A stretch of DNA of 13,133 nucleotides from Candidatus Stramentimicrobium fermentans (GTDB lineage: Bacteria > Atribacterota > Phoenicimicrobiia > Phoenicimicrobiales > Stramentimicrobiaceae). The notes below the pieces were generated by a model. It had not been told where the DNA came from. It saw nothing but the letters and a program-made list of their open reading frames with translations, and ran no database searches. A program made the translations under genes and the position numbers. Below, in pieces: positions 1-13,133 of the stretch; position 1 is the first letter of the stretch, and each line of letters begins with the position of its first letter. The stretch covers positions 1 to 13,133 of the forward strand of contig JAAYOB010000001.1 of the NCBI GenBank assembly GCA_012520575.1, in the 5' to 3' direction.

Positions 1-120
1 AGAGTAGCCCAAACTAAAGCGTGAAGACTACTCTGATTATGTACAGTAAAATTACAGATTATTTTTCAGTTTGTGATTTTTGGTAATTATGCCAGACGGT
101 AATCACGGTTGGAAAATCTA
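1..120. repeat. 120-bp terminal direct repeat, left copy
   Basis: These bases are identical, with no mismatch, to the last 120 bases of the window (13014-13133). The repeat begins with a short inverted repeat, AGAGTAG (1-7) and CTACTCT (28-34). On the minus strand it also contains the last codons of a decayed reading frame ending at a TAA at 59-61. A prefix exactly equal to the suffix is the usual mark of a circular assembly path. Direct repeats flanking the locus are the alternative. No replication gene supports an autonomous plasmid. Confidence 0.97.
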
Positions 121-1176: not shown

Positions 1177-2127
1177 ATGGAATTAGAAACAAAAAAGATT
1201 GATATTGATGCCCTGCCGGGTGAAAGATGGTTTCCCAAAGAGACCAACTTTGAAGAAGATATGCCGCTTTACTGGGGTGACTGGGGTGTAGCTTCAGAGA
1301 TAGATACACTGAAGGCGGTTTTGATGAGGAGACCTGGTAAAGAGATTGAAAATTTTGATTACCGGGCAGTCAGATTCAATGATCCGATTAATGTCGAAAA
1401 ATTCAGACAGCAACATGATAATCTGGTTCAAATATATAAAGACCATGGGGTTAAGGTCTATTATGTAGAAAAACAGAGAGAAGACCGGCCTAATGCTGTA
1501 TTTATGCGGGACCAGGTGTTTATGACCCCTGAGGGCGCCATCGTTAGTAGACCGGCAATGGCAGAGAGAAGAGGGGAAGAAAGGTATGCTGCAGAAGCCT
1601 TAGCCAGATTGGGAGTACCTATCATCAAGACCATCAATGGAGACGGGATATTTGAAGGTGCCAGCGGTATGTGGGTAGATAGGCATACGGTTATTTTAGC
1701 CACTGGTATGAGAGCAAATAGATCCGGCTATGAACAAGTTGCACATGAATTGGAAAGAATGGGTGTTACCGAAATACTCCATATGCAAATACCCTGGGGC
1801 TATGCCCATATTGATGGATTGTTAAATATCGCTAGCTATGATACCGCTATGGTACACGCCACCCATGTACCTTATGATATCTGTATTGCCTTAATGAAAA
1901 AAGGGATGAAAATTTTAGAGGCACCTTCCCAAACTGAAGCAAGAGAAACTTTGGGCGTAAACTTCGTGGCACTTAAACCGGGGTTGGTAATTCAGCCCGC
2001 CGGAAACCCCAGATGCAAAGAGGTATTAGAGAAAAACGGTATTGAAGTCATTTCTGTAGATTTTTCGGAAATACTGAAGGGGTGGGGAGCAATACACTGT
2101 TCCACCGTATTCTTAAAGAGAGGTTAA
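1177..2127 (+). CDS. DDAH / arginine deiminase superfamily hydrolase
   Basis: This is a 316-residue cytoplasmic enzyme of the pentein (guanidino-modifying) superfamily, which hydrolyses or transfers from guanidinium groups through a Cys-His-Glu/Asp site. Visible catalytic pieces are FMRDQ (D112), FEGASG (E160), the WGYAHIDG motif with H211 and D213, and the nucleophile in GAIHCST (C308) near the C-terminus, as in dimethylarginine dimethylaminohydrolases and related amidinotransferases. The length suits the DDAH branch (about 250-320) rather than ArcA-type arginine deiminase (about 410). The start at 1177 is chosen over an upstream TTG (1060) because AGAGGAGGA lies 6 bases before it and the extra 39 residues look like translated leader. 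It is the only gene on this strand, converging on the transporter/hydrolase operon. The substrate (methylarginine, another N-substituted arginine or a guanidino acid) is not determinable. The family call is firm. Confidence 0.9.
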   Translation: MELETKKIDIDALPGERWFPKETNFEEDMPLYWGDWGVASEIDTLKAVLMRRPGKEIENFDYRAVRFNDPINVEKFRQQHDNLVQIYKDHGVKVYYVEKQREDRPNAVFMRDQVFMTPEGAIVSRPAMAERRGEERYAAEALARLGVPIIKTINGDGIFEGASGMWVDRHTVILATGMRANRSGYEQVAHELERMGVTEILHMQIPWGYAHIDGLLNIASYDTAMVHATHVPYDICIALMKKGMKILEAPSQTEARETLGVNFVALKPGLVIQPAGNPRCKEVLEKNGIEVISVDFSEILKGWGAIHCSTVFLKRG

Positions 2128-2215
2128 GATAAAAAAACTGCCCTCTCTATAATATACCTGAAAGATATTCTTAAAATTTAAAGTACTTTTCTTAAAACAA
2201 AAACTCAGATATTAT

Positions 2216-2249
2216 AAAGACGAGGCATTTGGACCTCGTCTTTATTTTT
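2216..2249 (+). terminator. Intrinsic terminator between convergent units
   Basis: A perfect 10-bp stem AAAGACGAGG (2216-2225) / CCTCGTCTTT (2234-2243), with an 8-base loop, is followed by ATTTTT on the plus strand. It lies 88 bases after the DDAH-like stop. Read on the minus strand, the same hairpin begins just past the deacetylase stop (2248-2250) but is followed only by TTT and ATAAT. It may therefore serve both converging units, more strongly for the plus strand. Confidence 0.88.
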
Positions 2250-3066
2250 AACTTCTCAGTAAACCTTCCTTTGCTTTACGGCATATCTCGTATGTCGGCC
2301 CTATTAAAACACCCGGCTTACTTTTCATGAAGATGATTATCTCTTCCAACATCTTTACCCGGCTGACCCTGCCGCATATCCAGGGATGCAAGACAAAGGT
2401 CAATGAACCACCCTCTTCATAGAGACCTTCAAACTCTTCCAACCAAATCTCTTTCACGATACTGGTAGGCATGATGGGCCTGCGGGATGGCTCCTGTATG
2501 GTGAAAAAGAAATGTGAGGAGTCATCATAGAGCCAATTAAAGGGCAGTTCAGTAATATATTTTCCCTCACTCGTTTTATGCAAATAAGGGCAGTCTCTAT
2601 CCATCATATTTGAGGAATATTCAAAATCATTTTGGGCAATAGCATCGATAGTCTCTTTGTTTAAATTAGCCTCCGGTGAGCGATGCCCTTTAGGTATAAC
2701 TCCCAGTAAGTCTTTCATTATCTTTTTGGATTTTAAAATAAGCTCATTTTCTTGTTCAATAAAATAAGCCTTTTCATGCAGATACCCATGATAACCGATT
2801 TCATGCCCCCTCCTTACTATCTCTTGACACACTTCACTATACCGCTCTATAACCCATCCAGGTATAAAAAAGGTTGCCTTAATCTCCTGCCGATCTAACA
2901 TATCGAGTATTCTTGGCACTGCCACTTTTGGTCCATAGGAACCTTCTGCCATTAAATTCATGGAATGTATACTATCCATGGTCCGGGAAAACCAGAAAGT
3001 TTCTGCATCAAGATCGAAAGTAAAAGCCACTCCGCATTTGATGCCATCAGGCCAGATTTTGGTCAT
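2248..3066 (-). CDS. Polysaccharide deacetylase-fold amidohydrolase (PuuE/HpPgdA-like)
   Basis: A 272-residue NodB-homology (carbohydrate esterase 4) protein with no signal peptide, so cytoplasmic. Motifs in order: FTFDLDAE (D18, D20; catalytic base and metal region), GYHGYLHE (H93, H97; metal-binding HxxxH), GHRSPE (R129), LPFNW near 174, and VLHPW (H227). The YHGYLHE form and the FTFDLDAE start are like the branch holding PuuE-type allantoinase, H. pylori PgdA and cyclic-imide hydrolases, rather than secreted chitin or peptidoglycan deacetylases. A soluble substrate with a C-N bond is therefore more likely than cell wall. The start is supported by GGAGGTG eight bases upstream. It is the last gene of the minus-strand run, 113 bases after the AstE-like gene, and ends at the shared terminator. 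The substrate is unknown. Confidence 0.88.
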   Translation of the reverse strand: MTKIWPDGIKCGVAFTFDLDAETFWFSRTMDSIHSMNLMAEGSYGPKVAVPRILDMLDRQEIKATFFIPGWVIERYSEVCQEIVRRGHEIGYHGYLHEKAYFIEQENELILKSKKIMKDLLGVIPKGHRSPEANLNKETIDAIAQNDFEYSSNMMDRDCPYLHKTSEGKYITELPFNWLYDDSSHFFFTIQEPSRRPIMPTSIVKEIWLEEFEGLYEEGGSLTFVLHPWICGRVSRVKMLEEIIIFMKSKPGVLIGPTYEICRKAKEGLLRS

Positions 3067-3179
3067 TAAACTTACACCTCCTATAGATTAGATATTTTTA
3101 CTTATCTTTGTATTGTAATGGTTTTTTTTCTTTAAACTTTAATCCATATTGATTGCCGTTTTATTTTAATATTTCTTTC

Positions 3180-4127
3180 CTATTTAGGAACAATGATCTC
3201 TATCAAGAGAGAGCCCCTTTTAACATATATACCGGTATTAACCAGTAGCACCTTCCCATCAGCAGGTGCCCGCAAAGTTTCCAGTTCTGTACCAAATACA
3301 TCTTCGACGGTTCCGATTATTTCGTTCTCTTTTACCTGTTCTCCTACTTTAGTATGATGATAAAAAATACCTTCCGCTTTTGCTCTGATATGAATAGGTG
3401 CTTTATAGTAGATTTGGTTTTCAAGCTCAATCAGACTATCATCTAAAACTTTCATAAAGCCTAATATATTAGTCAGGCCTCTTAAAATTAAATCTACATA
3501 TTTTTCACTGTCTTCCCCTATTTGTCCTGCATTCATAACCAGACTGGGAATTCCCATATCTGCGGCTGTAGAATAACTTTGGTTCCGATCATTTATCTCG
3601 CCTTCAGCCGATTTAATCACAATATCGGTCAACCCTGAGTATTTTGCCATCTTAAGAGACACTTCATTTACTCTCTTATCTTCCGAATCATGTATTTCAC
3701 AAAAGGGGCTCATGGCTTCTGTTAAATCCGCGGAGTGTAAATCAATATAGTAATCGCTACCCTTTATAAAATTTTGTACTAAATGATAGACTAGTCTTTC
3801 GGAATAGGTTCCGTTTTCGCTTCCCGGAAAACATCTATTAATATTCTTATTATCCTTGGGACAGACAAACATCTTTTTACTTTTAAAGGCCTCCATATCT
3901 ACAATGGGAATAATCTTTACAGTGCCTCGGAGTGTTTCGTAATTTAACCTTTTATACAGAGCTATTGCGGCTAGTACAGGCGGATATTCGCAGCCATGGA
4001 TACCTGCGGTAATACAAACCGTCGGCCCTTTCTGTGCACCTTTTACTAAGAGATAAGGGAATGTAATGGCATCACCATCGGCAGCTTTATACTTTACATA
4101 ACTTCCTTTTTTGTATATGATTGTCAT
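3180..4127 (-). CDS. Succinylglutamate desuccinylase/aspartoacylase-family zinc hydrolase
   Basis: A 315-residue M14-like carboxypeptidase-fold protein. Zinc and substrate motifs: GIHGCEYPP (H44, E47), NKNINRCFPG (N97, R98, the substrate-carboxylate-binding NRxFPG) and YIDLHSAD (H131). The C-terminal part (about 245-313) is the small beta-barrel typical of AstE/AspA relatives (KAEGIFYHHTKVGEQVKENE, then APADGKVL), similar to a lipoyl/biotinyl hybrid fold. Family members remove acyl groups from N-acyl amino acids. Oddity: where relatives usually have the catalytic glutamate of the E-A-G or E-x-G motif, this protein reads VMNAGQIGE, with Asn199 (codon AAT), so activity or mechanism may differ. 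The gene follows the transporter ATPase by about 100 bases and is probably co-transcribed. Its SD (AGAGAG) is modest. Confidence 0.87.
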   Translation of the reverse strand: MTIIYKKGSYVKYKAADGDAITFPYLLVKGAQKGPTVCITAGIHGCEYPPVLAAIALYKRLNYETLRGTVKIIPIVDMEAFKSKKMFVCPKDNKNINRCFPGSENGTYSERLVYHLVQNFIKGSDYYIDLHSADLTEAMSPFCEIHDSEDKRVNEVSLKMAKYSGLTDIVIKSAEGEINDRNQSYSTAADMGIPSLVMNAGQIGEDSEKYVDLILRGLTNILGFMKVLDDSLIELENQIYYKAPIHIRAKAEGIFYHHTKVGEQVKENEIIGTVEDVFGTELETLRAPADGKVLLVNTGIYVKRGSLLIEIIVPK

Positions 4128-4228
4128 AGTTTTTCACTCTCTTTATTCAGTATATTTTAGATATTTTTACGGGTAATAATTTGAGCAGGAGAGATTCTTC
4201 TTTAAAAAATCCATATAAGATAATATTA

Positions 4229-5209
4229 TTAGTTATCGGTAACTCTATGGCAGCGGCATTTAGTTCCATCAGATATTTTTTTTAGTTCGGGGTGTATGGT
4301 AGAGCAAATTGGAATACTGACCGGACATCTTGCCTGAAAACGACACCCTTTCGGCAGATTGATTGGAGAGGGTGGGTCATCTAATACCTTTAAATCAAAA
4401 TCTTTCTCTTCACATTCGGTATTAGCTGATTCGATTAAGAGCTTGCTATAGGGGTGTTTGGCATTTTGCCTGAACTCTTCTGCTTTTAAAATTTCTACAA
4501 TCTCTCCTAAATACATAACCGCTATATCAGTACAAATATATTCGGCAACCCTTATGTCATGGGTAACCAAGAGGTAAGTCAGTCTTTCTTTCTGCTGTAA
4601 TTCTACCAGCAAGTTCAGTATTTTGGCCTGTACTGAAACATCTAAAGCGGAAGTCGGTTCATCCAAAACAATAAAATCTGGATTTAACGATAAAGCCCTG
4701 GCAATACAAATTCTCTGTTGCTGTCCACCTGACAATTGATGGGGAAATCTGGTCAGCAGTTCTGGTCTTAAGTTAACTTTATCCAACAACTCTTCAATTT
4801 TTTGCTCAATTTCTATCTCTTTTTCGTATACTTTGTTTATTTTTAACGGCTCTTTGAGTAAAAAATCGATTGTTCTGCGGGGAGATAGAACTTCAGCCGG
4901 ATTCTGAAAGACTATTTGAATTTGACTGTAAATTCTATTTTCTCTTAAATCTCTACCTTTCATCTTGGTAATATCATGTCCTTTATACCAAATAGTGCCT
5001 GAAGTGGGTTCCTGCAGCCTAGTTATTAATTGAGCCAGGGTGGTTTTCCCACAGCCACTCTCACCGAGTAAACCAAAGGTAGTGCAGCCCATTATGTCCA
5101 GATCCACCTTATCAAGGGCATTAACATAGGCTTTAGGCTTATTCCATACTCCACGTCCAACGGGAAATAGCTTTTTTAGTTTGCATGTTGATAAAATAGG
5201 TTTAACCAT
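4229..5209 (-). CDS. Dipeptide/oligopeptide ABC transporter ATP-binding protein (DppF/OppF-like)
   Basis: A 326-residue ATPase of the peptide/nickel importer family. Walker A is GESGCGKTT (K55), the ABC signature is LSGGQQQR (159-166), Walker B is IVLDEPTSALD (D183, E184), and the switch histidine is H217 in VTHD. A C-terminal oligopeptide-transporter tail with KGCRFQARCP and further cysteines (C289, C295, C302, then CRC at 318-320) is present. The start is set at ATG 5209 because GGTGAT lies just before it. An upstream TTG at 5221 would add four residues but has no SD. It is the second ATPase of the importer, following the DppD-like gene by about 50 bases, and should pair with it under the two permeases at the inner face of the membrane. 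Confidence 0.95.
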   Translation of the reverse strand: MVKPILSTCKLKKLFPVGRGVWNKPKAYVNALDKVDLDIMGCTTFGLLGESGCGKTTLAQLITRLQEPTSGTIWYKGHDITKMKGRDLRENRIYSQIQIVFQNPAEVLSPRRTIDFLLKEPLKINKVYEKEIEIEQKIEELLDKVNLRPELLTRFPHQLSGGQQQRICIARALSLNPDFIVLDEPTSALDVSVQAKILNLLVELQQKERLTYLLVTHDIRVAEYICTDIAVMYLGEIVEILKAEEFRQNAKHPYSKLLIESANTECEEKDFDLKVLDDPPSPINLPKGCRFQARCPVSIPICSTIHPELKKISDGTKCRCHRVTDN

Positions 5210-5260
5210 ATTAATCACCAATCAAATGAAAGCACTCACTCTAACTTTATATTTGTGATC

Positions 5261-6226
5261 TTAAAGATATTTACGGCAAGCTACTCTTCTACCATTATCT
5301 AACTCTACCAACGCCGGCGGCGTACCTTGACAGCAATCCCCTGATTTCTCCAAACATCTGCAATCAAAGATACAGCCGTCGGGAATATTGAGCATATTGG
5401 GAACAAACCCTTCAATACTCTGCAGAGGCCTCCCCCTTTTGCTGACCGAGGGCTGTGAATCCATGAGAGCCCTGGTATAAGGGTGCAGAGGTTGCGATAG
5501 AATATCTTCAGTAGATCCAATCTCCACAATAATACCGCCATACATCACTGCAATCTTTCCACAAACTTGTTTAACCACATCTAGGTCATGAGAGATCCAG
5601 ATCAGCGAACTGTTGAACCTTCTCATAATATCTCTCATCAATTTGATTATCTGTTTTTCGACCGTAACATCCAAGGCGGTAGTCGGCTCATCGGCAATTA
5701 TTAAAGCCGGATTGCAGCTAACTGCCATCGCTATCATCACTCTTTGCGCCATTCCTCCGGAAAGCTCAAAGGGATATCTTTCCAGTACACTCTTTGCTTC
5801 CGGTACCCTCACAATCCTAAGCAATTCTTCCGCCCTATATACTGCCTCTTTATTATTGAGACGGGAATGTGTTTTCAGCACCTCTATCATCTGTTCTTTG
5901 ACTTTAAAGAGTGGGTTTAGAGAGGTCATAGGGCTTTGTAAAATCATGGAAAGTCCTGCACCTCTAATTTTCCCCATCTTCTTAGAGGATAAAGAGAGGA
6001 GATTTTCACCTTTAAAGAAGATGGAGCCTGATATAATTTTACCAGGAACGGGTAATATACCCATTATGGATTGAGATAAAACACTCTTACCGGAACCAGT
6101 TTCTCCAACAATTCCTAAAGACTCACATTCACCGACTTCTAGACTAATATCCCGCAGTACTCTGGATACACCGTCGAAAGTATTGAATACTACATTTAAA
6201 TTATTAACACTGAGTAATCTATTCAT
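5261..6226 (-). CDS. Dipeptide/oligopeptide ABC transporter ATP-binding protein (DppD/OppD-like)
   Basis: A 321-residue ATPase: Walker A GETGSGKS (41-48, K47), Q-loop MILQSPMTSLNP (94-105), signature LSGGMAQR (155-162), Walker B LIIADEPTTALD (D179, E180) and H-loop SHD (H213). The C-terminal extension has the family's DGCIFDCRC pattern with cysteines 285, 289, 291, 298, 299 and 317. In some peptide-importer ATPases this region carries an iron-sulfur cluster, which is possible but unproven here. It starts only 4 bases after the upstream permease stop, indicating translational coupling. All catalytic motifs are intact. Confidence 0.95.
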   Translation of the reverse strand: MNRLLSVNNLNVVFNTFDGVSRVLRDISLEVGECESLGIVGETGSGKSVLSQSIMGILPVPGKIISGSIFFKGENLLSLSSKKMGKIRGAGLSMILQSPMTSLNPLFKVKEQMIEVLKTHSRLNNKEAVYRAEELLRIVRVPEAKSVLERYPFELSGGMAQRVMIAMAVSCNPALIIADEPTTALDVTVEKQIIKLMRDIMRRFNSSLIWISHDLDVVKQVCGKIAVMYGGIIVEIGSTEDILSQPLHPYTRALMDSQPSVSKRGRPLQSIEGFVPNMLNIPDGCIFDCRCLEKSGDCCQGTPPALVELDNGRRVACRKYL

Positions 6227-6230
6227 CTTT

Positions 6231-7103
6231 TTATCTTCTCTGTCTCGGGTCGAAAATATCCCTCAGTCCGTCACCTAAAAGATTCAACCCCATAACAGTC
6301 AGCATAATGGCTAATCCCGGAAAAAATACCAGCCACCATTGCCCTGATACTATATATTGTCTTCCCTCACTGATTATCAAGCCCCATTCGGATATGGGCG
6401 GCTGTACTCCGATACCGATAAAACTCAATCCGGCAGTATTCAAAATAACATTTCCGAAAGAGAGTGTTGAACTTACTAAAACAGGGGGTAAAACATTGGG
6501 CAAGATATGATAAAACAGAATATAACTCCACTTGCCCCCGATTCCCCTGGTAGCTGTGACATAGCCGCTCTGTTTTAACGAGAGTGTTTCTCCTCTGGCA
6601 ATTCTCGCAGTACCGGTCCAGGAGCTGACTAGCATGGCAATAATCAGAGTTTTTATTCCTCCTCCCATAATGGTAGCTAACACCATAGCCACAATGACAG
6701 ATGGGAAAGCCATCAATAAATCTACAAATCTCATAATAAAATTATCGATATTACCGCCTAGATAACCAGAAACGGTGCCTATTGCCAGACCCAGCAAGGT
6801 AGAAAAGATTACTACAATAAAACCTATACTCAACGAGGTCCGGGCTCCGTAAATTACCCGGCTGAACAAATCTCTTCCATAACGGTCTGTGCCAAAATAA
6901 TGGGCGCGGGAGGGCGAATTGAGAATACTATGATAGTTTATTTCATCCGGAGGAATAGGGGCAAGGAGCGGTCCTAAAATTGCTATCAGAATGAAAACAA
7001 AGACAATAGTAGCCCCCACGACAGAAAGCTTATTGGAAAGGAATATCTTTTTTCGATGTGATTGTTTACTCTTATCTATTTGGATTCTTGTATCTCTTGT
7101 CAT
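6231..7103 (-). CDS. Dipeptide/oligopeptide ABC transporter permease (DppC/OppC-like)
   Basis: A 290-residue inner-membrane permease. It has a basic cytoplasmic N-terminus, a first membrane segment at about 27-49, the OppC signature GTDRYGRDLFSRVIYGART (71-89), further hydrophobic segments at about 91-113, 128-147, 150-161, 207-231 and 256-276, and the EAA coupling loop around 166-196 (ARGETLSLKQSGYVTATRG). It ends in the typical GDGLRDIFDPR tail. The start lies 15 bases after the DppB-like stop, with AGGA close to the ATG. It forms the translocation pore with the neighbouring permease. Confidence 0.95.
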   Translation of the reverse strand: MTRDTRIQIDKSKQSHRKKIFLSNKLSVVGATIVFVFILIAILGPLLAPIPPDEINYHSILNSPSRAHYFGTDRYGRDLFSRVIYGARTSLSIGFIVVIFSTLLGLAIGTVSGYLGGNIDNFIMRFVDLLMAFPSVIVAMVLATIMGGGIKTLIIAMLVSSWTGTARIARGETLSLKQSGYVTATRGIGGKWSYILFYHILPNVLPPVLVSSTLSFGNVILNTAGLSFIGIGVQPPISEWGLIISEGRQYIVSGQWWLVFFPGLAIMLTVMGLNLLGDGLRDIFDPRQRR

Positions 7104-7118
7104 AGTCCTGCTTTTTGG

Positions 7119-8150
7119 TCAGTATTGTATTCTCGGGTCGATAGCCATATAAATAAGATCTACCGCTAAATTGATCAACACATATATTAAAGCCATGAAA
7201 ATAATAAAACCCTGAATGGGGCCATAGTCTAAAAAATTGATGGAATCGACCGCATATCGGCCGATGCCGGGCCAATTAAATACGGTTTCAATAAAAACAA
7301 CCCCTCCGATAAGCTGTGCTAAAAACATGCCCAACATGGTCAAGACCGGCTTTATGCCGTTTTTTAAGGAATACTTCCATATTATCTTATTGGTCTTTAC
7401 TCCGCAGCTTTTGGCAAACTTAATATAATCCTGCTGACTTACCTCAATCATACCTGCTCTGGTTAGACGGCAGATCATTGCTAAAAAAGAATAAGAAAGG
7501 ACCAGAACGGGTAATAATAGATGCATAAAGGCATCTTTGAATAGGTCCCAATCACCGTTTTTTAGGGCATCGAATAATAAAAAACCGCTCCCTCCGGCAA
7601 CCACCTCTTTGGTTAAGCTTAACCGGCCGGTAGGTGCAGGAACCCAACTCAATTTATAATAAAAGATATAGATACATAAAAGCCCGATCCAAAAGCCCGG
7701 TGCTGAAATGCCACCGATGGAGAATAGTCGAGAGGCATGGTCAATCAATCCGTTCTTATGAACAGCTGAAATTATACCCAACCAAACCCCTACTAAAGCA
7801 GCAAAACCGAGACTCAGCAGGGAAAGTTCAATTGTTGCCGGCAGCCTCAACTTAAACTCTTCTACCACAGTTCGTCCGGTATGGTAAGAAAATCCAAGGT
7901 CGCCTTCCAATAGAGATTTTAAATAGTTAAGATATTGTTTTATATAGGGCCTATCTAATCCCATTTTTATTCTTACCCTATCGACATCCTCTTGCTTAGC
8001 CTGAGGCGGTAAGAGCATGCGCGCCGGGTCACCGGGAACAACTCTAACTAAAATAAATGCCACAATTGATGCACCTATCAAAACTAGGAGCATAAAGACA
8101 ACTCTTTTTAATAAATACCGGCTGAAATTCACTGAACCTTCCTCTACCAT
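7119..8150 (-). CDS. Dipeptide/oligopeptide ABC transporter permease (DppB/OppB-like)
   Basis: A 343-residue inner-membrane permease of the DppB family. Membrane segment one is at about 15-36, followed by the family's RVVPGDPA (36-43) and the external loop. Further segments are at about 105-130, 141-165, 208-228, 268-291 and 312-336. The EAA loop at about 229-262 reads RAGMIEVSQQDYIKFAKSCG. The C-terminus YMAIDPRIQY is typical. Start choice is uncertain: the ATG at 8150 has little SD, whereas a GTG at 8132 is preceded by GAGGAAGG four bases away and would give VNFSRYLLKR, the usual family beginning. The shorter form (337 residues) may be the real one. Confidence 0.94.
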   Translation of the reverse strand: MVEEGSVNFSRYLLKRVVFMLLVLIGASIVAFILVRVVPGDPARMLLPPQAKQEDVDRVRIKMGLDRPYIKQYLNYLKSLLEGDLGFSYHTGRTVVEEFKLRLPATIELSLLSLGFAALVGVWLGIISAVHKNGLIDHASRLFSIGGISAPGFWIGLLCIYIFYYKLSWVPAPTGRLSLTKEVVAGGSGFLLFDALKNGDWDLFKDAFMHLLLPVLVLSYSFLAMICRLTRAGMIEVSQQDYIKFAKSCGVKTNKIIWKYSLKNGIKPVLTMLGMFLAQLIGGVVFIETVFNWPGIGRYAVDSINFLDYGPIQGFIIFMALIYVLINLAVDLIYMAIDPRIQY

Positions 8151-8259
8151 ACTTTCAAAGTAAAAAACTCTTATTTCGATTTGCCTACAATAAGAGCCTA
8201 CGGAATCTTTTTACAGGAATGCGACTTTAATTATTGCTTATTATTCATATGATTCACTA

Positions 8260-8297
8260 CTTAGGACAGCAAAAGTTAACACTTTTACTGTCCTAAG
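8260..8297. promoter_or_regulatory. Long intercistronic hairpin between binding-protein and permease genes
   Basis: CTTAGGACAG (8260-8269) and CTGTCCTAAG (8288-8297) form a perfect 10-bp stem. Past one C/A mismatch it continues as AAAAG (8271-8275) / CTTTT (8282-8286) with a 6-base loop. It starts 17 bases downstream of the binding-protein stop and more than 100 bases before the permease gene. No T-run follows on the minus strand. Inference: an RNA-stabilising or attenuating element that lets the binding protein be made in excess of the membrane parts, as intercistronic hairpins do in other importer operons. Confidence 0.6.
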
Positions 8298-8314
8298 CTT
8301 ATTTCATTAATTAA

Positions 8315-9883
8315 TCATTCAATGTCCAATTCATATAGTCTGGTAATGCTATCAGAATAATGGACATAGTTCTTTACATTTTTCCGGAAAGCAAGGACAA
8401 TTTTGGCCTCATATATAGGTATATAAGGAACATCTACAGCTAATATTTCTTGAATTTCTGCTAATATTTCATTACGTTTTTCGGGGTCCATTTCTACTTT
8501 AGCTTTGTCTATTAAATTATCAACTTCTTCATTGGAATATTTGGCATAATTACCTGGGCTGGGAATGGAGGAGGAATCGACCAGATCGTTTAATAAACCT
8601 ACCGGGTCTGCTGCATTATCCCACCAAGAGACTACAAAAAAGTCCAATGTCCCACCGTCACCAGCTTGGAAGAAGGCTGGGGGTGCCATCGGCTTAATTT
8701 CCAAATCAACTCCTATTTTTTTCAATTCAGCCTGCATTATGACTGCCATATCCGGGAATTTACCGGCATTAAAGAGATCGAAACTGATCTTAAGTCCTTC
8801 TCCATAACCTGCTTCTTTTAATAATGCTTTGGCTTTTTCTAAGTCATATTCATATTTGAAGGCAGGAATAGAACCGGAGAGCTCGTCGGTTAAGATTGAC
8901 CTGGCTCTGGGAGAATATTTCCCTCCTCCGCCAATAATCTCACAAAGATGCTCATAGGGAATGGTATAGGCAATTGCCTGGCGGACTTTGACATTATCAT
9001 ATGGTGCAACTTCTGTATTCATACCTAAATACACAACTTTAGAATTGGCAGGTCTGACCAATAACTCTATATCCGGGTTGGCTTCTAAGGCAGGGTAGTC
9101 TATCGCGGCAGGCAACCTATAGAAGTCTATATCACCTTTTTCAAGCATGATTCTTAAATTACTGCTCTCCGCCACTGTTTTCAGAATGATACGGTCTATT
9201 TTGGGTTTATCTCCCCAATAATCTTTGTTTACCACTAAGCGGGCTTCATCGGTAGATAATGATTCTAAAATATAAGGGCCGGTACCTGCTTCATTGGAGG
9301 CCAGCCACTTCATCTGATCGTCCACAGCGGAACCGCCTTTTTCCAGAACAGTATTTCTGCTCAAAATGCTACCATTGTAGCTACTGATTCTCTTTAGAAA
9401 CTGCGGTTCTACGCGACTAAGTGTTATTTTTACTTGATATGGATTAAGAACTTCCACTTTGGAAATCAGTTCGTTGAAGAAAGAAGCATAACTGCCGTGA
9501 GTTCTGAGCATATCAAATGTAAACTCTACATCAGCTGCATCAAAATCATGGTTACTGTGAAACTTAACGCCTTTTCTTAAATTGAAGGTGTATTCTAAAC
9601 CATTTTCCGATATTGTCCAGCTTTGCGCCAATCTCGGATTGAACACATCAGGTTCTTCAACCAATTCACCATCTTTGGAGACCATACTACTTCTGCTTAT
9701 TAAAGTGTCATAGGTACTGATACTGATATATTGAGAGGTGATGTTTAACCCTATCAAAGGATTGATGTCTCCGGGAGGATTGCCATCACCTATTACTAAT
9801 ACTTTTTCCTGCGCACTGCCGGTCATGGATATGAATACAGAAATCAAAAGAAGAATTAAAAAATACGATATTCTTTTTTTCAT
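8315..9883 (-). CDS. Extracytoplasmic peptide-binding protein of the ABC importer (SBP family 5)
   Basis: A 522-residue solute-binding protein of the DppA/OppA family (SBP_bac_5). An N-terminal Sec signal (KKR, then a hydrophobic core to about residue 20) probably ends at TGSA/QEK (cleavage after A24). There is no lipobox cysteine, so it is a soluble periplasmic protein and not a lipoprotein. The family pattern lies at about 84-124 (RLAQSWTISENGLEYTFNLR, then GVKFHSNHDFDAADV), followed by the usual C-terminal lobe with AYTIPYEHL near 308. The length is normal for peptide binders. It is the first gene of the transporter set, separated by about 340 bases from the MBL gene upstream. The ligand could be peptides, opines or amino-acid derivatives, since this family is broad. 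The SD is weak (GAAAGGG about 10 bases upstream). Confidence 0.94.
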   Translation of the reverse strand: MKKRISYFLILLLISVFISMTGSAQEKVLVIGDGNPPGDINPLIGLNITSQYISISTYDTLISRSSMVSKDGELVEEPDVFNPRLAQSWTISENGLEYTFNLRKGVKFHSNHDFDAADVEFTFDMLRTHGSYASFFNELISKVEVLNPYQVKITLSRVEPQFLKRISSYNGSILSRNTVLEKGGSAVDDQMKWLASNEAGTGPYILESLSTDEARLVVNKDYWGDKPKIDRIILKTVAESSNLRIMLEKGDIDFYRLPAAIDYPALEANPDIELLVRPANSKVVYLGMNTEVAPYDNVKVRQAIAYTIPYEHLCEIIGGGGKYSPRARSILTDELSGSIPAFKYEYDLEKAKALLKEAGYGEGLKISFDLFNAGKFPDMAVIMQAELKKIGVDLEIKPMAPPAFFQAGDGGTLDFFVVSWWDNAADPVGLLNDLVDSSSIPSPGNYAKYSNEEVDNLIDKAKVEMDPEKRNEILAEIQEILAVDVPYIPIYEAKIVLAFRKNVKNYVHYSDSITRLYELDIE

Positions 9884-10226
9884 TTTTTATTTACCCTTTC
9901 TATACATTGATTTTAGTTTTTAGTAGTGCCAGTCGCTATTTGTCTAATATTTGGGGCTAACATAATTATAAGTAATTAATACAACTACCATTGTCCTACT
10001 GCCGAGTAAGGCAAAATTCCATATTTTGAGTTTTATCATTTGATTTAAATAATCCCTTACGGCTATATTTGCCGCAACCTATTCCATAAATATCACTCTT
10101 TTCTCTTTACCTTATTTTCCTTTTTATCATAATGTTATGTTATAAGATTGGTTAGACAATTGTTAGTCAATGGCTATAGCCCTTTTCCTCTAAGAGAGAG
10201 GTAAAGAAAGATAAATTGATATTTGA
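9884..10226. other. 343-base gap upstream of the binding-protein gene
   Basis: No gene is visible. On the minus strand there is a TATAAT at 9970-9965, about 80 bases before the binding-protein start, without a convincing -35. There is also TTGACT (10170-10165) followed 19 bases later by TTATAA (10145-10140). Either could let the importer be transcribed separately from the two genes upstream. Small stem-loops (for example CCTCT/AGAGG near 10187-10201) are too weak to call a terminator, so read-through is also possible. Confidence 0.35.
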
Positions 10227-11114
10227 TTACTCATTTTTTTTAGCGGTAAATTTGATTACATCACCAGTATAAAACATTCCATGCCGGGTACCGAATCTTT
10301 CTCTGAGCATATATTCTGCTTCAAACCCCGTACAATGCCCTGACCAGATATTGGCTATGTCAAACTTCTCTAATTCTTCAATAGTCCGTCTTCTAACTTC
10401 TGGACTCAAATCTATAAGATGAAATCCTCCCACCACCCCTAATATATTTTTGTTATTAGTTATATTAATTGAGTGGTATAATGTATTTGCTATTCCGGCA
10501 TGGCTGCAACCGGTTACCACCACTATTCCGGACTCACCTAAATCAAATACCAGAGCCATATCATCTTTTTCTGGATCTTCAATTAATATACCATTATCCA
10601 ATATATAGACATCTTCTTCCGGCTTTTCAAAATCGGTAATGCGAGGAACGGTACCGGTCATATGAATTTCGGGATAAATTTCAGTTTCATTAACTAACAG
10701 TATTAACCGCTCTCTTGGTAATTGTAATATTAGTTTTTCATCAATACCAATATAGTGGATTTCCGGTTTAAGGCTATATACTGGTCTGGTAACCTCTTTA
10801 TGGGCGAATAATTTAAACTTAGCAGTCTCATCATTGATCAATTTTTTTAAACCGCCAGTATGATCGTAATGGCAATGTGATAAAACCAGACTATCAATAC
10901 TTTCTACACTTATGTTTAGTTTCCCCATATTGTGTAACAACGGATCTGACTCCCAGCCGCTATCAAAGAGTATTCTCTTTTTTTCTCCATTATCCCAATA
11001 GCAATCTATTAAGACAGAAAGTCCGAATTGGGACCAGAGATTGTTAATATATCTTGAGCGGTCACAGACCAGTATCTTTAGGTCAATTCTTGCAAGTGCA
11101 GATTTATCGGACAT
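10227..11114 (-). CDS. Metallo-beta-lactamase-fold protein, COG1237 type
   Basis: A 295-residue MBL-fold protein of the branch often annotated as 7,8-dihydropterin-6-methyl-4-(beta-ribofuranosyl)aminobenzene-5'-phosphate synthase, a name based on a methanogen homologue that need not apply here. Metal ligands are visible: SHCHYDHTGG (H80, H82, D84, H85), TGCSHAGI (H205), GGFHL (H232) and SGHCTG (H260). An FDSGW strand precedes the first motif. No signal peptide is seen. The start is supported by GAGGTAA six bases upstream. It lies 29 bases after the transglutaminase-like gene, so the two are probably co-transcribed. Its reaction in this locus is unknown. Hydrolysis of an ester, lactone, amide or phosphoester bond is possible. 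Confidence 0.86.
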   Translation of the reverse strand: MSDKSALARIDLKILVCDRSRYINNLWSQFGLSVLIDCYWDNGEKKRILFDSGWESDPLLHNMGKLNISVESIDSLVLSHCHYDHTGGLKKLINDETAKFKLFAHKEVTRPVYSLKPEIHYIGIDEKLILQLPRERLILLVNETEIYPEIHMTGTVPRITDFEKPEEDVYILDNGILIEDPEKDDMALVFDLGESGIVVVTGCSHAGIANTLYHSINITNNKNILGVVGGFHLIDLSPEVRRRTIEELEKFDIANIWSGHCTGFEAEYMLRERFGTRHGMFYTGDVIKFTAKKNE

Positions 11115-11143
11115 AACTAATTACCTCGCTTTCTCATCTGCCA

Positions 11144-12742
11144 TTAAGGAAGCATAACATTTTCCCACTCTTCCTTTAGTAAAATTTCAAAATTTTCAGT
11201 GGTAGGTATATTTTCTTCTTTTATTCTGGGATGCTTTGTTTCATGTTCTCCATCTACATAAATAAGAATTCGGTCATTATAGAGGCTTTTTAATTTTCTT
11301 AGAACTTCTACTGCTTCAGCAGGTGAAAAAGTGCCTGAATAATGGCCTCCGGCAATGGGGGATGCAAATTTTCCCCGATAATGGAAGCGGGCAATAACCT
11401 TATTACCCCTAGGTCCGTTCCAGTGTATAGTGTTTTGTGACGATTGCAGCTTACCGTTATCAAAAGTAAATTCATAGTTAGGTACAAAAACATAATGGTG
11501 AGAACCCGGAACTTCCCCTTCCAGTAAATAATTTTCAATCCGGGCCATATCTAAAATGGCACTGATAACAAATGATTGGACCATGCAGTGCCCGGCACGG
11601 GTTCTGAAGGATTCATCTATAGAATATTCCACCAGACATTCATCCCATAAATGCCCCCAAATATAATTACGATTGGGTAGAGATGCGACGCTGATCCATT
11701 CTCTGTCTAAAACCAAAATTTTATCATATCCTTTTGCATTGCGAGAACAGGCGGCAATATAGGCTGAAATTGGACTTAAGGTATTAGCTCGAATTAGAAT
11801 ATCTTCAATAAAACCATAGTATTGCCAGGCTCTTTCCTTTTTAGTAGGCATTGCAATATCCCATAAAGAGTGGAACTTAAACCATTTGGTATATCTACCT
11901 GTACTCCTAACGGCAGCAATTACTGCCGCTGCTTCTTGTTTTTCTCCATCTAATAGAGTGGCATTTTTAACTTTTTCTAAGAGCGTTCTTTCTTGCGTGG
12001 TCAGTTCAGGGATACCGATTTTTTCTCGATATTGCTCAACAAGTCTTTGCAAATACGGAGATTCTTCTACATTATCCCGTCCCATCAGGGGATACCAGGC
12101 GAGCTTATCGTTAAAGATTAACACTATCTTTCCTTTAACATCTTCCACTTTTTCTCCGGTAACGGCACAATAGAATTCTCCTTTGCTCGATATCCAAGCC
12201 ATTCCTTCTTCGGAATAAATAACAAATACCTCCTCGGAAGACTCCTGTTTTTTGGTTTCAATAATAAACCTCATGGCAGCTGCCTCCAATTCGGTAATCT
12301 CTTTTTTATAAGTTTTTAAGGTGCTGGCCAAAGGCATCATCCTCTGATCCAGAAAAGGGAAAAAGGGATACCTTTCCGGGTATAAATCTTTAGTAGTCAT
12401 TACAATATTTGTTTTCTCCCAGGGAAACATTTTAAAGTCAAAGGGGGCAGAACGAAAATATTGAGTATGTGGTAAGAATTCATTACTTTCTCTATCATCT
12501 TCTAAAAAGGCATTTTGATAACCCGGCACACTAGAGATATGCTCGTAAAACCAGAGATCTGCCCTCAAATATATTTCCGGATGCATCACACAAATACTTC
12601 GTGAAGCATAAAAAGCATAATGATCAAAGGGGTCAGTTAAAGCGCTTTCAACTTTTTTAGTCCACATTTCTACATGAACAGAAAGCGGTGAAACTGGACT
12701 GGTTAAGAATAGCGGTTCATTTAATTCACTTGTGCGATCCAT
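11144..12742 (-). CDS. Transglutaminase-like cysteine hydrolase with a large unassigned N-terminal region
   Basis: A 532-residue protein without signal peptide or membrane segments. The C-terminal third carries a transglutaminase/cysteine-peptidase-like triad: TRAGHCMVQS (C386), GSHHYVFVP (H415 or H416) and FTFDNG (D428). The C-to-H (about 30) and H-to-D (about 12) spacings fit that fold. Residues 1-320 match no family I can name. They are rich in aromatic residues and include a helical stretch around 145-165 and 225-280. Such bacterial proteins are typically amidases, peptidases or protein-modifying enzymes, so a cytoplasmic step on an imported peptide or amide is plausible. The start at ATG 12742 has AAAGGAGA eight bases upstream. 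A TTG at 12778 would add 12 residues translated from the leader and is rejected. It is the first gene of the minus-strand run. Confidence 0.7.
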   Translation of the reverse strand: MDRTSELNEPLFLTSPVSPLSVHVEMWTKKVESALTDPFDHYAFYASRSICVMHPEIYLRADLWFYEHISSVPGYQNAFLEDDRESNEFLPHTQYFRSAPFDFKMFPWEKTNIVMTTKDLYPERYPFFPFLDQRMMPLASTLKTYKKEITELEAAAMRFIIETKKQESSEEVFVIYSEEGMAWISSKGEFYCAVTGEKVEDVKGKIVLIFNDKLAWYPLMGRDNVEESPYLQRLVEQYREKIGIPELTTQERTLLEKVKNATLLDGEKQEAAAVIAAVRSTGRYTKWFKFHSLWDIAMPTKKERAWQYYGFIEDILIRANTLSPISAYIAACSRNAKGYDKILVLDREWISVASLPNRNYIWGHLWDECLVEYSIDESFRTRAGHCMVQSFVISAILDMARIENYLLEGEVPGSHHYVFVPNYEFTFDNGKLQSSQNTIHWNGPRGNKVIARFHYRGKFASPIAGGHYSGTFSPAEAVEVLRKLKSLYNDRILIYVDGEHETKHPRIKEENIPTTENFEILLKEEWENVMLP

Positions 12743-13013: not shown

Positions 13014-13133
13014 AGAGTAGCCCAAACTAAAGCGTGAAGACTACTCTGATTATGTACAGTAAAATTACAGATTATTTTTCAGTTTGTGATTTTTGGTAAT
13101 TATGCCAGACGGTAATCACGGTTGGAAAATCTA
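13014..13133. repeat. 120-bp terminal direct repeat, right copy
   Basis: An exact copy of bases 1-120, in the same orientation and reaching the last base of the window. It is preceded by a small AT-rich hairpin (TTTTACC 12994-13000 / GGTAAAA 13006-13012). If the molecule is circular, this copy is the same DNA as the left one and the true length is 13,013 bp. Confidence 0.97.

Follow-up and report, generated by a model that had tools for sequence, protein, structure and literature searches.

A probable three-module patchwork in Candidatus Stramentimicrobium fermentans: an importer-deacylase operon beside a rare cysteine-hydrolase-like/MBL gene pair and an arginine-deiminase-like gene

Gene content of the locus

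Does a locus that places a Dpp/Opp-type importer beside five enzymes encode a single pathway? A sequence-only reading had proposed this for the window, the whole stretch of 13,133 bp analysed here: a single compound of guanidino, ureido or N-acyl peptide type would be imported and broken down stepwise by all five enzymes. The ten genes, all inside 11.6 kb and nine of them on one strand, are intact long open reading frames with start codons, most preceded by a purine-rich ribosome site. The features are as follows.

1..120, unstranded: terminal direct repeat, copy 1; matches 13014-13133 and the first bases of another contig (C12) at 100% identity
1177..2127, plus strand: predicted single-domain arginine-deiminase-like guanidino hydrolase, 316 aa (Pfam ADI 4.3e-22, DDAH_eukar 3.8e-18)
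2214..2245, plus strand: terminator-like hairpin where the guanidino gene and the minus-strand operon converge (12-pair stem, then a T run)
2248..3066, minus strand: CE4-type amidohydrolase, HpPgdA-like, 272 aa (Pfam Polysacc_deac_1)
3180..4127, minus strand: AspA/DoeB-like zinc deacylase, 315 aa (Pfam AstE_AspA_cat 2.8e-24)
4229..5221, minus strand: DppF/OppF-type ATPase (Pfam ABC_tran and oligo_HPY)
5261..6226, minus strand: DppD/OppD-type ATPase (Pfam ABC_tran and oligo_HPY)
6231..7103, minus strand: OppC/DppC-type permease (Pfam BPD_transp_1 and OppC_N)
7119..8150, minus strand: OppB/DppB-type permease (Pfam BPD_transp_1 and BPD_transp_1_N)
8260..8297, unstranded: imperfect inverted repeat in the gap separating the first permease gene from the binding-protein gene (84% over 38 bases in inverted orientation when the window is compared with itself by BLAST)
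8315..9883, minus strand: substrate-binding protein of family 5, signal-like at its N-terminus (SBP_bac_5 2e-81)
10227..11114, minus strand: predicted metal-dependent hydrolase of the MBL fold, 295 aa, a relative of 2p4z/TM1679 (Pfam Lactamase_B models)
11144..12742, minus strand: unnamed 532-aa protein of cysteine-hydrolase-like type (profile comparison), encoded 29 bp upstream of the MBL gene
13014..13133, unstranded: terminal direct repeat, copy 2; 100% identical to 1-120

Pfam families and intact reading frames confirm the gene content claimed by the sequence-only reading, with two identities corrected. The absence of a canonical ast, arc, allantoin or agmatine set also holds within the window, where no otc, arcC or astABCD neighbors were found in the ORF list or by Pfam. 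Literature searches returned nothing on this gene set. Since the window is an entire contig whose first 120 bases are identical to its last 120, the wider context is missing. A phage origin of the window was rejected, as was membership in a defence system, for which PADLOC gave generic MBL models only. The sole Rfam match, a pyrrolysine insertion element at 1676-1762, was discarded as well: it lies inside a gene, and its 19.9 bits fall short of the gathering score of 36.

The best reading of the locus is an ordinary importer-deacylase operon (module 1) beside a rare cysteine-hydrolase-like/MBL pair (module 2) and a separately transcribed arginine-deiminase-like gene (module 3). It is probably a patchwork of these three separable modules rather than one conserved pathway.

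The importer operon and its two hydrolases

The Dpp/Opp-type importer is complete in one gene run, with a family-5 binding protein, two BPD_transp_1 permeases and two oligo_HPY ATPases, and Pfam domains uphold its earlier description as a full importer. The nearest PDB sequences of the binding protein are 5u4o, HbpA and DppA. At the position of the DppA aspartate that binds the peptide alpha-amine, the window protein has an aligned asparagine, with an aspartate one place earlier; a one-residue gap would align the two aspartates.

The AstE/AspA-like zinc deacylase was correctly recognized from the sequence, as the protein has the AstE_AspA_cat domain and the HxxE...H zinc motif of that superfamily, with the motifs GIHGCE, NINRC and DLHS. 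Its best NCBIfam model is DoeB (98 bits, cut-off 403), AstE scores 20 bits (cut-off 306), and both equivalog scores are missed. The second hydrolase belongs with the HpPgdA/PuuE branch of CE4 deacetylases, its closest PDB sequences being 3rxz (2.7e-46), next 3qbu HpPgdA, and PuuE. It keeps the HpPgdA metal site D20/H93/H97 (Asp-His-His, with the H-x3-H motif) plus D18/H227, whereas PuuE lacks the metal site (PMC3084791). Its PuuE allantoinase equivalog-domain score in NCBIfam is 49 bits, below the cut-off of 425. On these two grounds PuuE was rejected as the exact identity, and of the earlier designation "PuuE/HpPgdA-like" the HpPgdA part was retained. For HpPgdA itself, no activity was seen on the usual deacetylase substrates (PMC3084791).

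An Opp/Dpp-type importer and two cytoplasmic amide/acyl hydrolases in one gene run form a sensible import-and-cleave unit, and comparison with other genomes supports this. A Cytobacillus oceanisediminis plasmid (L068) likewise carries genes for a family-5 binding protein, two permeases, two ATPases and AspA-like deacylases in one gene run; it differs in having M14/M20 genes and no HpPgdA-like gene, whereas in the window just one AspA-like gene is accompanied by an HpPgdA-like gene. AspA-like genes also lie near Opp genes at four other loci (L222, L228, L230, L237) and close to a PuuE-like gene at two (L226, L233), and modules 2 and 3 are absent from the plasmid and from all six of these loci. 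In the window, the binding protein and ABC transporter would import a small peptide-like or N-acylated amino compound, from which the zinc-dependent deacylase may take off the acyl group inside the cell; the HpPgdA-like metal amidohydrolase would cut an amide, releasing amino and carboxylic acids. Both enzymes presumably act on the importer's cargo.

The guanidino enzyme

The residues D112, E160, H211, C308, R131 and R179 of the guanidino enzyme are invariant or nearly so among 47 homologues, and D213 is kept in 37 of them. The H-x-D motif that contains D213 (HID) aligns with HLD of arginine deiminase, while DDAH has HLK there; together with the catalytic Cys, Glu and Asp, this is the residue set of arginine deiminase. 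The earlier assignment as a DDAH-like guanidino hydrolase therefore stands at the level of the guanidino-modifying family, by Pfam and the catalytic residues, and DDAH as the exact identity was rejected, given HID in place of HLK and a best DDAH equivalog score in NCBIfam of 90 bits against a cut-off of 340. With the ADI/DDAH superfamily the enzyme shares the Arg positions that bind the carboxylate and the catalytic Cys, His, Glu and Asp. It differs in being a single 316-aa domain, in lacking arc genes alongside and in falling far under every NCBIfam equivalog cut-off (for the arginine deiminase models TIGR01078 and PRK01388, 78 and 83 bits against 489 and 414). Module 3 would hydrolyze arginine, or a closely similar compound, at its guanidino group. 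Its gene lies outside the operon, convergent to it, with the hairpin at 2214-2245 between them, and this orientation and the terminator-like hairpin indicate that it is transcribed separately.

The 532-aa protein

No Pfam, NCBIfam or PDB sequence match to the 532-aa protein was found, Transglut_core included. In profile-profile comparison, a Transglut_core-type match centered on C386 scored 39.2, against at most 16.5 for 30 column-shuffled controls, 15.4 for the reversed profile and 15.2 for the MBL profile. The Cys-His-Asp core thus aligns with Transglut_core proteins above the controls, and C386, H415/H416 and D428 are invariant in the family. AlphaFold, run on the protein with four homologues, both whole and as the core only, gave mean pLDDT values of 39 and 37, and the models were unusable. 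The protein is accordingly described as transglutaminase-like on the strength of the profile-profile match and the invariant residues; the earlier label "transglutaminase-like cysteine hydrolase" is supported to that extent, the Pfam match being absent. It resembles PF01841-type cysteine enzymes in the order of the aligned Cys, then His and Asp, and it is unlike them in having no Pfam match and in the roughly 370 residues that precede its core, for which no relatives are known. Its site may cleave or transfer an amide, and the MBL-fold hydrolase is its partner in module 2.

The family is very rare: members occur in one Clostridia MAG (G061) and in three MAGs of Bathyarchaeota, a sister species (G002) has a truncated copy, and identity between bacteria and archaea is 45-63%. 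Plasmid records contained no relative. Three genomes from the class of the Clostridia MAG encode more distant relatives, which offered no clue to function.

Occurrence of the genes in other genomes

The gene-neighborhood comparison bears on the proposal of a single pathway. Across 48 guanidino-enzyme loci (661 kb), no AspA, binding-protein, OppB/C or MBL gene was present; these loci contained one PuuE relative and one remnant of the 532-aa gene. On this evidence one conserved five-enzyme pathway was rejected. The sequence-only reading had itself named homologues found apart as evidence against it, and this is largely what was seen. What survives of its import-and-dismantle system is the importer with two hydrolases in one run and the recurrence of AspA near Opp; a single substrate for all enzymes is not supported.

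Stepwise breakdown of one compound by all five enzymes in the window itself is distinctly improbable. Besides the compact, mostly co-oriented layout, it can draw on the co-occurrence of some of the enzymes in the Clostridia MAG and the sister species, and on Kozakia baliensis, where an ADI-family gene accompanies PuuE-like genes and M20 peptidases. Against it, no AspA was found in the Clostridia MAG at E<=1e-20, no importer adjoins the 532-aa gene at the loci seen in other genomes, the guanidino gene has its own convergent transcript, and the gene run is broken by gaps of 343 bp and 164 bp. Counting against the patchwork, the guanidino enzyme is overrepresented among genomes of one class that have an AspA relative (21 cases against 13.1 expected, hypergeometric p 0.002, shared ancestry ignored), although no adjacency of the two genes was seen there. 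A striking enzyme list beside an importer is insufficient ground for inferring one pathway.

A further point against the patchwork is that modules 2 and 3 are only partly independent of each other. Close homologues of the 532-aa protein (63% identity) and the MBL protein (49%) occur in the Clostridia MAG together with two of the guanidino enzyme (55-56%). In the sister species, the truncated 532-aa gene comes immediately after the guanidino gene (77%). In Bathyarchaeota, an exporter adjoins the 532-aa gene in one genome (G062) and a guanidino-enzyme homologue in another (G063), the exporters being 84% identical. Given this co-occurrence, adjacency and exporter link, modules 2 and 3 may share a substrate. 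The same observations favor a further explanation, in which the trio forms a second, separate pathway, laterally acquired with or without the importer. We consider it rather unlikely: the three genes lie on different contigs in the Clostridia MAG, where a hairpin and about 250 bp without an MBL start come after the 532-aa gene, and most guanidino-enzyme genomes lack the 532-aa gene (guanidino-enzyme homologues occur in 46 of 154 genomes of one class and in 32 of 256 of another, against 1 and 3 with the strict 532-aa family).

The 532-aa/MBL pair

The MBL-fold assignment made from the sequence agrees with the Lactamase_B models and the PDB matches 2p4z (2e-29) and 3h3e; the protein has an HCHYDH motif. 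An MBL gene directly follows the 532-aa gene in the window and at both archaeal loci readable past the 532-aa gene (L024, L025), although the MBL tree, which counts against the patchwork here, did not group the window protein with its archaeal partners with support. It is conceivable, if less likely than not, that the two genes form an enzyme module without a named family, which lateral transfer has spread among Bathyarchaeota and unrelated, uncultured anaerobic bacteria and which may act with the arginine-deiminase-like enzyme on an amide compound. The modest interest of the locus resides in this pair, which remains as a small, concrete target: the cysteine-hydrolase-like proteins form an unnamed family from uncultured sediment-type lineages, are strongly conserved and have an MBL enzyme as partner. 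Their substrate, once known, would add one more step to the known use of amide compounds by such cells.

The pair might make or modify a compound rather than degrade one, since both the formation and the cleavage of amides can be catalyzed by enzymes of the transglutaminase fold, and the archaeal pairs adjoin UbiD-family, ABC exporter, MtrH and RACo-type genes. This is highly improbable, as the window has no biosynthetic scaffold gene and the 532-aa gene's neighbors in the Clostridia MAG (amidohydrolases, an M20 peptidase, DAP epimerase and a phosphotransacylase/acyl-kinase pair) suit breakdown.

Gene content and proposed modules of the locus

The best-supported account of the locus divides it into three modules: the importer with an AspA-like deacylase and an HpPgdA-like enzyme, a pair formed by a 532-aa protein and a metallo-beta-lactamase (MBL)-fold protein, and a guanidino enzyme. 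The data show gene identities, conserved residues, gene order and separability; the reactions and substrates of all three modules are those that the enzyme families would predict. Of ten long genes, nine run along the minus strand, between 12742 and 2248, and the plus strand carries one (1177-2127). The open reading frames and Pfam families, including a complete family-5 ABC importer, bear out the importer and enzyme genes named in the sequence-only reading:

11144-12742, minus strand, 532-aa protein
10227-11114, minus strand, MBL-fold protein
3180-4127, minus strand, AstE/AspA-type deacylase
2248-3066, minus strand, CE4-type deacetylase-fold enzyme (HpPgdA/PuuE branch)
1177-2127, plus strand, ADI/DDAH-type guanidino enzyme, 316 aa

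Along the minus-strand run, 29 bp separate the 532-aa gene from the MBL gene, 343 bp the MBL gene from the binding protein and 164 bp the latter from the first permease, followed by gaps of 15, 4, 39, 101 and 113 bp. The guanidino gene converges on the end of this run; a 12-pair terminator-like hairpin separates the two. The 120 bp at 1-120 are identical to 13014-13133 and to the start of another contig, C12; on the minus strand of this sequence, a T run comes directly after a 7-pair hairpin. The window's contig may be circular, tandem or repeat-bounded.

The deacylase is AspA/DoeB-like, yet far below the NCBIfam cut-offs for DoeB and AstE. Among known structures, 3rxz and HpPgdA are closest in sequence to the CE4-type enzyme, which retains the metal residues of HpPgdA. 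According to the paper on HpPgdA, this protein, unlike PuuE, can bind a metal ion at that site, and it showed no activity on the customary deacetylase substrates (PMC3084791). As a further representative of an already known type, the importer operon has a family-level link to peptide-like compounds, which suggests such a compound as its cargo. At the position of the DppA Asp that contacts the peptide alpha-amine, the binding protein aligns an Asn with an Asp just before it, and a one-residue gap would bring the two Asp residues into register.

The guanidino enzyme scored below all curated NCBIfam cut-offs for arginine deiminase, DDAH and related enzymes, and keeps catalytic Cys308, His211, Glu160 and Asp112 and arginines 131 and 179. 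Asp213 of its H-x-D motif, present in 37 of 47 homologues, aligns with the HLD motif of arginine deiminase, whereas DDAH has HLK there. The enzyme, described as a "DDAH-like guanidino hydrolase" in the sequence-only reading, is best called arginine-deiminase-like.

Separability of the genes in other genomes

A single import-and-dismantle pathway had been proposed, with co-occurrence of the gene set across genomes as its check; the full set was not found outside the window at 48 guanidino-enzyme and 20 AspA loci. Guanidino-enzyme homologues are common (46/154 and 32/256 genomes at E<=1e-25, in the two classes holding the other 532-aa relatives). A set of 48 loci around such genes (661 kb in total) contained no AspA, binding-protein, permease or MBL genes, a PuuE relative in one and a truncated 532-aa gene in one; some of these loci are short contigs, in which absences count for less. 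Other neighbours recur there, such as an acetolactate-synthase-like gene in six. AspA relatives (E<=1e-20) occur in 44 of the 154 genomes of the class of the Clostridia metagenome-assembled genome (MAG) with a 532-aa homologue, and that MAG has none at this threshold. The 20 AspA loci included Opp permease or binding-protein relatives in four, a PuuE relative in two, and guanidino, MBL or 532-aa genes in none; a Cytobacillus plasmid has AspA-like genes within an Opp gene run. AspA genes thus recur in combination with importer genes and in combination with a PuuE relative. A Kozakia baliensis plasmid combines an ADI-family gene, two PuuE-like genes, two M20 peptidases and an amino acid ABC importer, a further example of mixed C-N hydrolases close to an importer.

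The 532-aa protein and its MBL partner

The 532-aa family is nameless in the libraries searched, its window member having no match in Pfam, NCBIfam or PDB sequences, and is the sole part of the locus with real novelty. Among 84,980 species genomes, a single-protein query, which detects close relatives and may miss distant ones, found four: one in the Clostridia MAG (63%) and three in Bathyarchaeota MAGs (45-50%). The strict family occurs in 1/154 and 3/256 genomes of the two classes; among the window's own relatives, the sole copy is a truncated one in one sister species. Cys386, His415/416 and Asp428 do not vary across the family. A profile built from the family and its distant relatives matched Transglut_core proteins in an alignment centred on the catalytic Cys, scoring 39.2 against at most 16.5 for 30 column-shuffled profiles, 15.4 for the reversed profile and 15.2 for an MBL profile. 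On this profile comparison, a transglutaminase-like fold is supported but not proven. Distant relatives at L059-L061 (genomes G211 and G094) are larger, partly in tandem, have an N-terminal membrane-anchor-like segment, and carry Asn in place of Asp in the Cys-His-Asp site. One Bathyarchaeota homologue (L025, 2148-3707; contig coverage about 6-fold) has a single in-frame TAG at the Glu of its LMEGEVPGSH motif, most simply read as a point change or sequencing error.

The 532-aa/MBL pairing is real, with orthology only partly shown. An MBL gene comes directly after the 532-aa gene in the window and in the Bathyarchaeota loci L024 and L025, where a UbiD-family gene is next in line; the two archaeal genomes are mutually related, so the pairing represents two independent cases at best, one in the window and one in the archaea. 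In the Clostridia MAG, a hairpin and then the contig end lie 3' of the 532-aa gene, and the MBL homologue (49%) is on a separate contig. The MBL tree groups the window protein with the Clostridia MAG MBLs and does not settle its placement relative to the archaeal partners. MtrH-family, RACo-type and second UbiD genes near the pair in L024 (11164-15721) suggest methyl-group and aromatic-acid metabolism close by.

An association of the 532-aa, MBL and guanidino genes, separate from the importer, is possible on three observations: G002, a sister species, has the truncated 532-aa gene directly after its guanidino gene (77%); one Bathyarchaeota genome has an exporter adjoining its 532-aa gene, and a second has an 84% identical exporter next to a guanidino-enzyme homologue; and the Clostridia MAG has all three types, each on a different contig. 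In G002, a sigma-54-type transcriptional activator (L021, 3082-4458) lies directly upstream of the guanidino-enzyme gene; the window has none.
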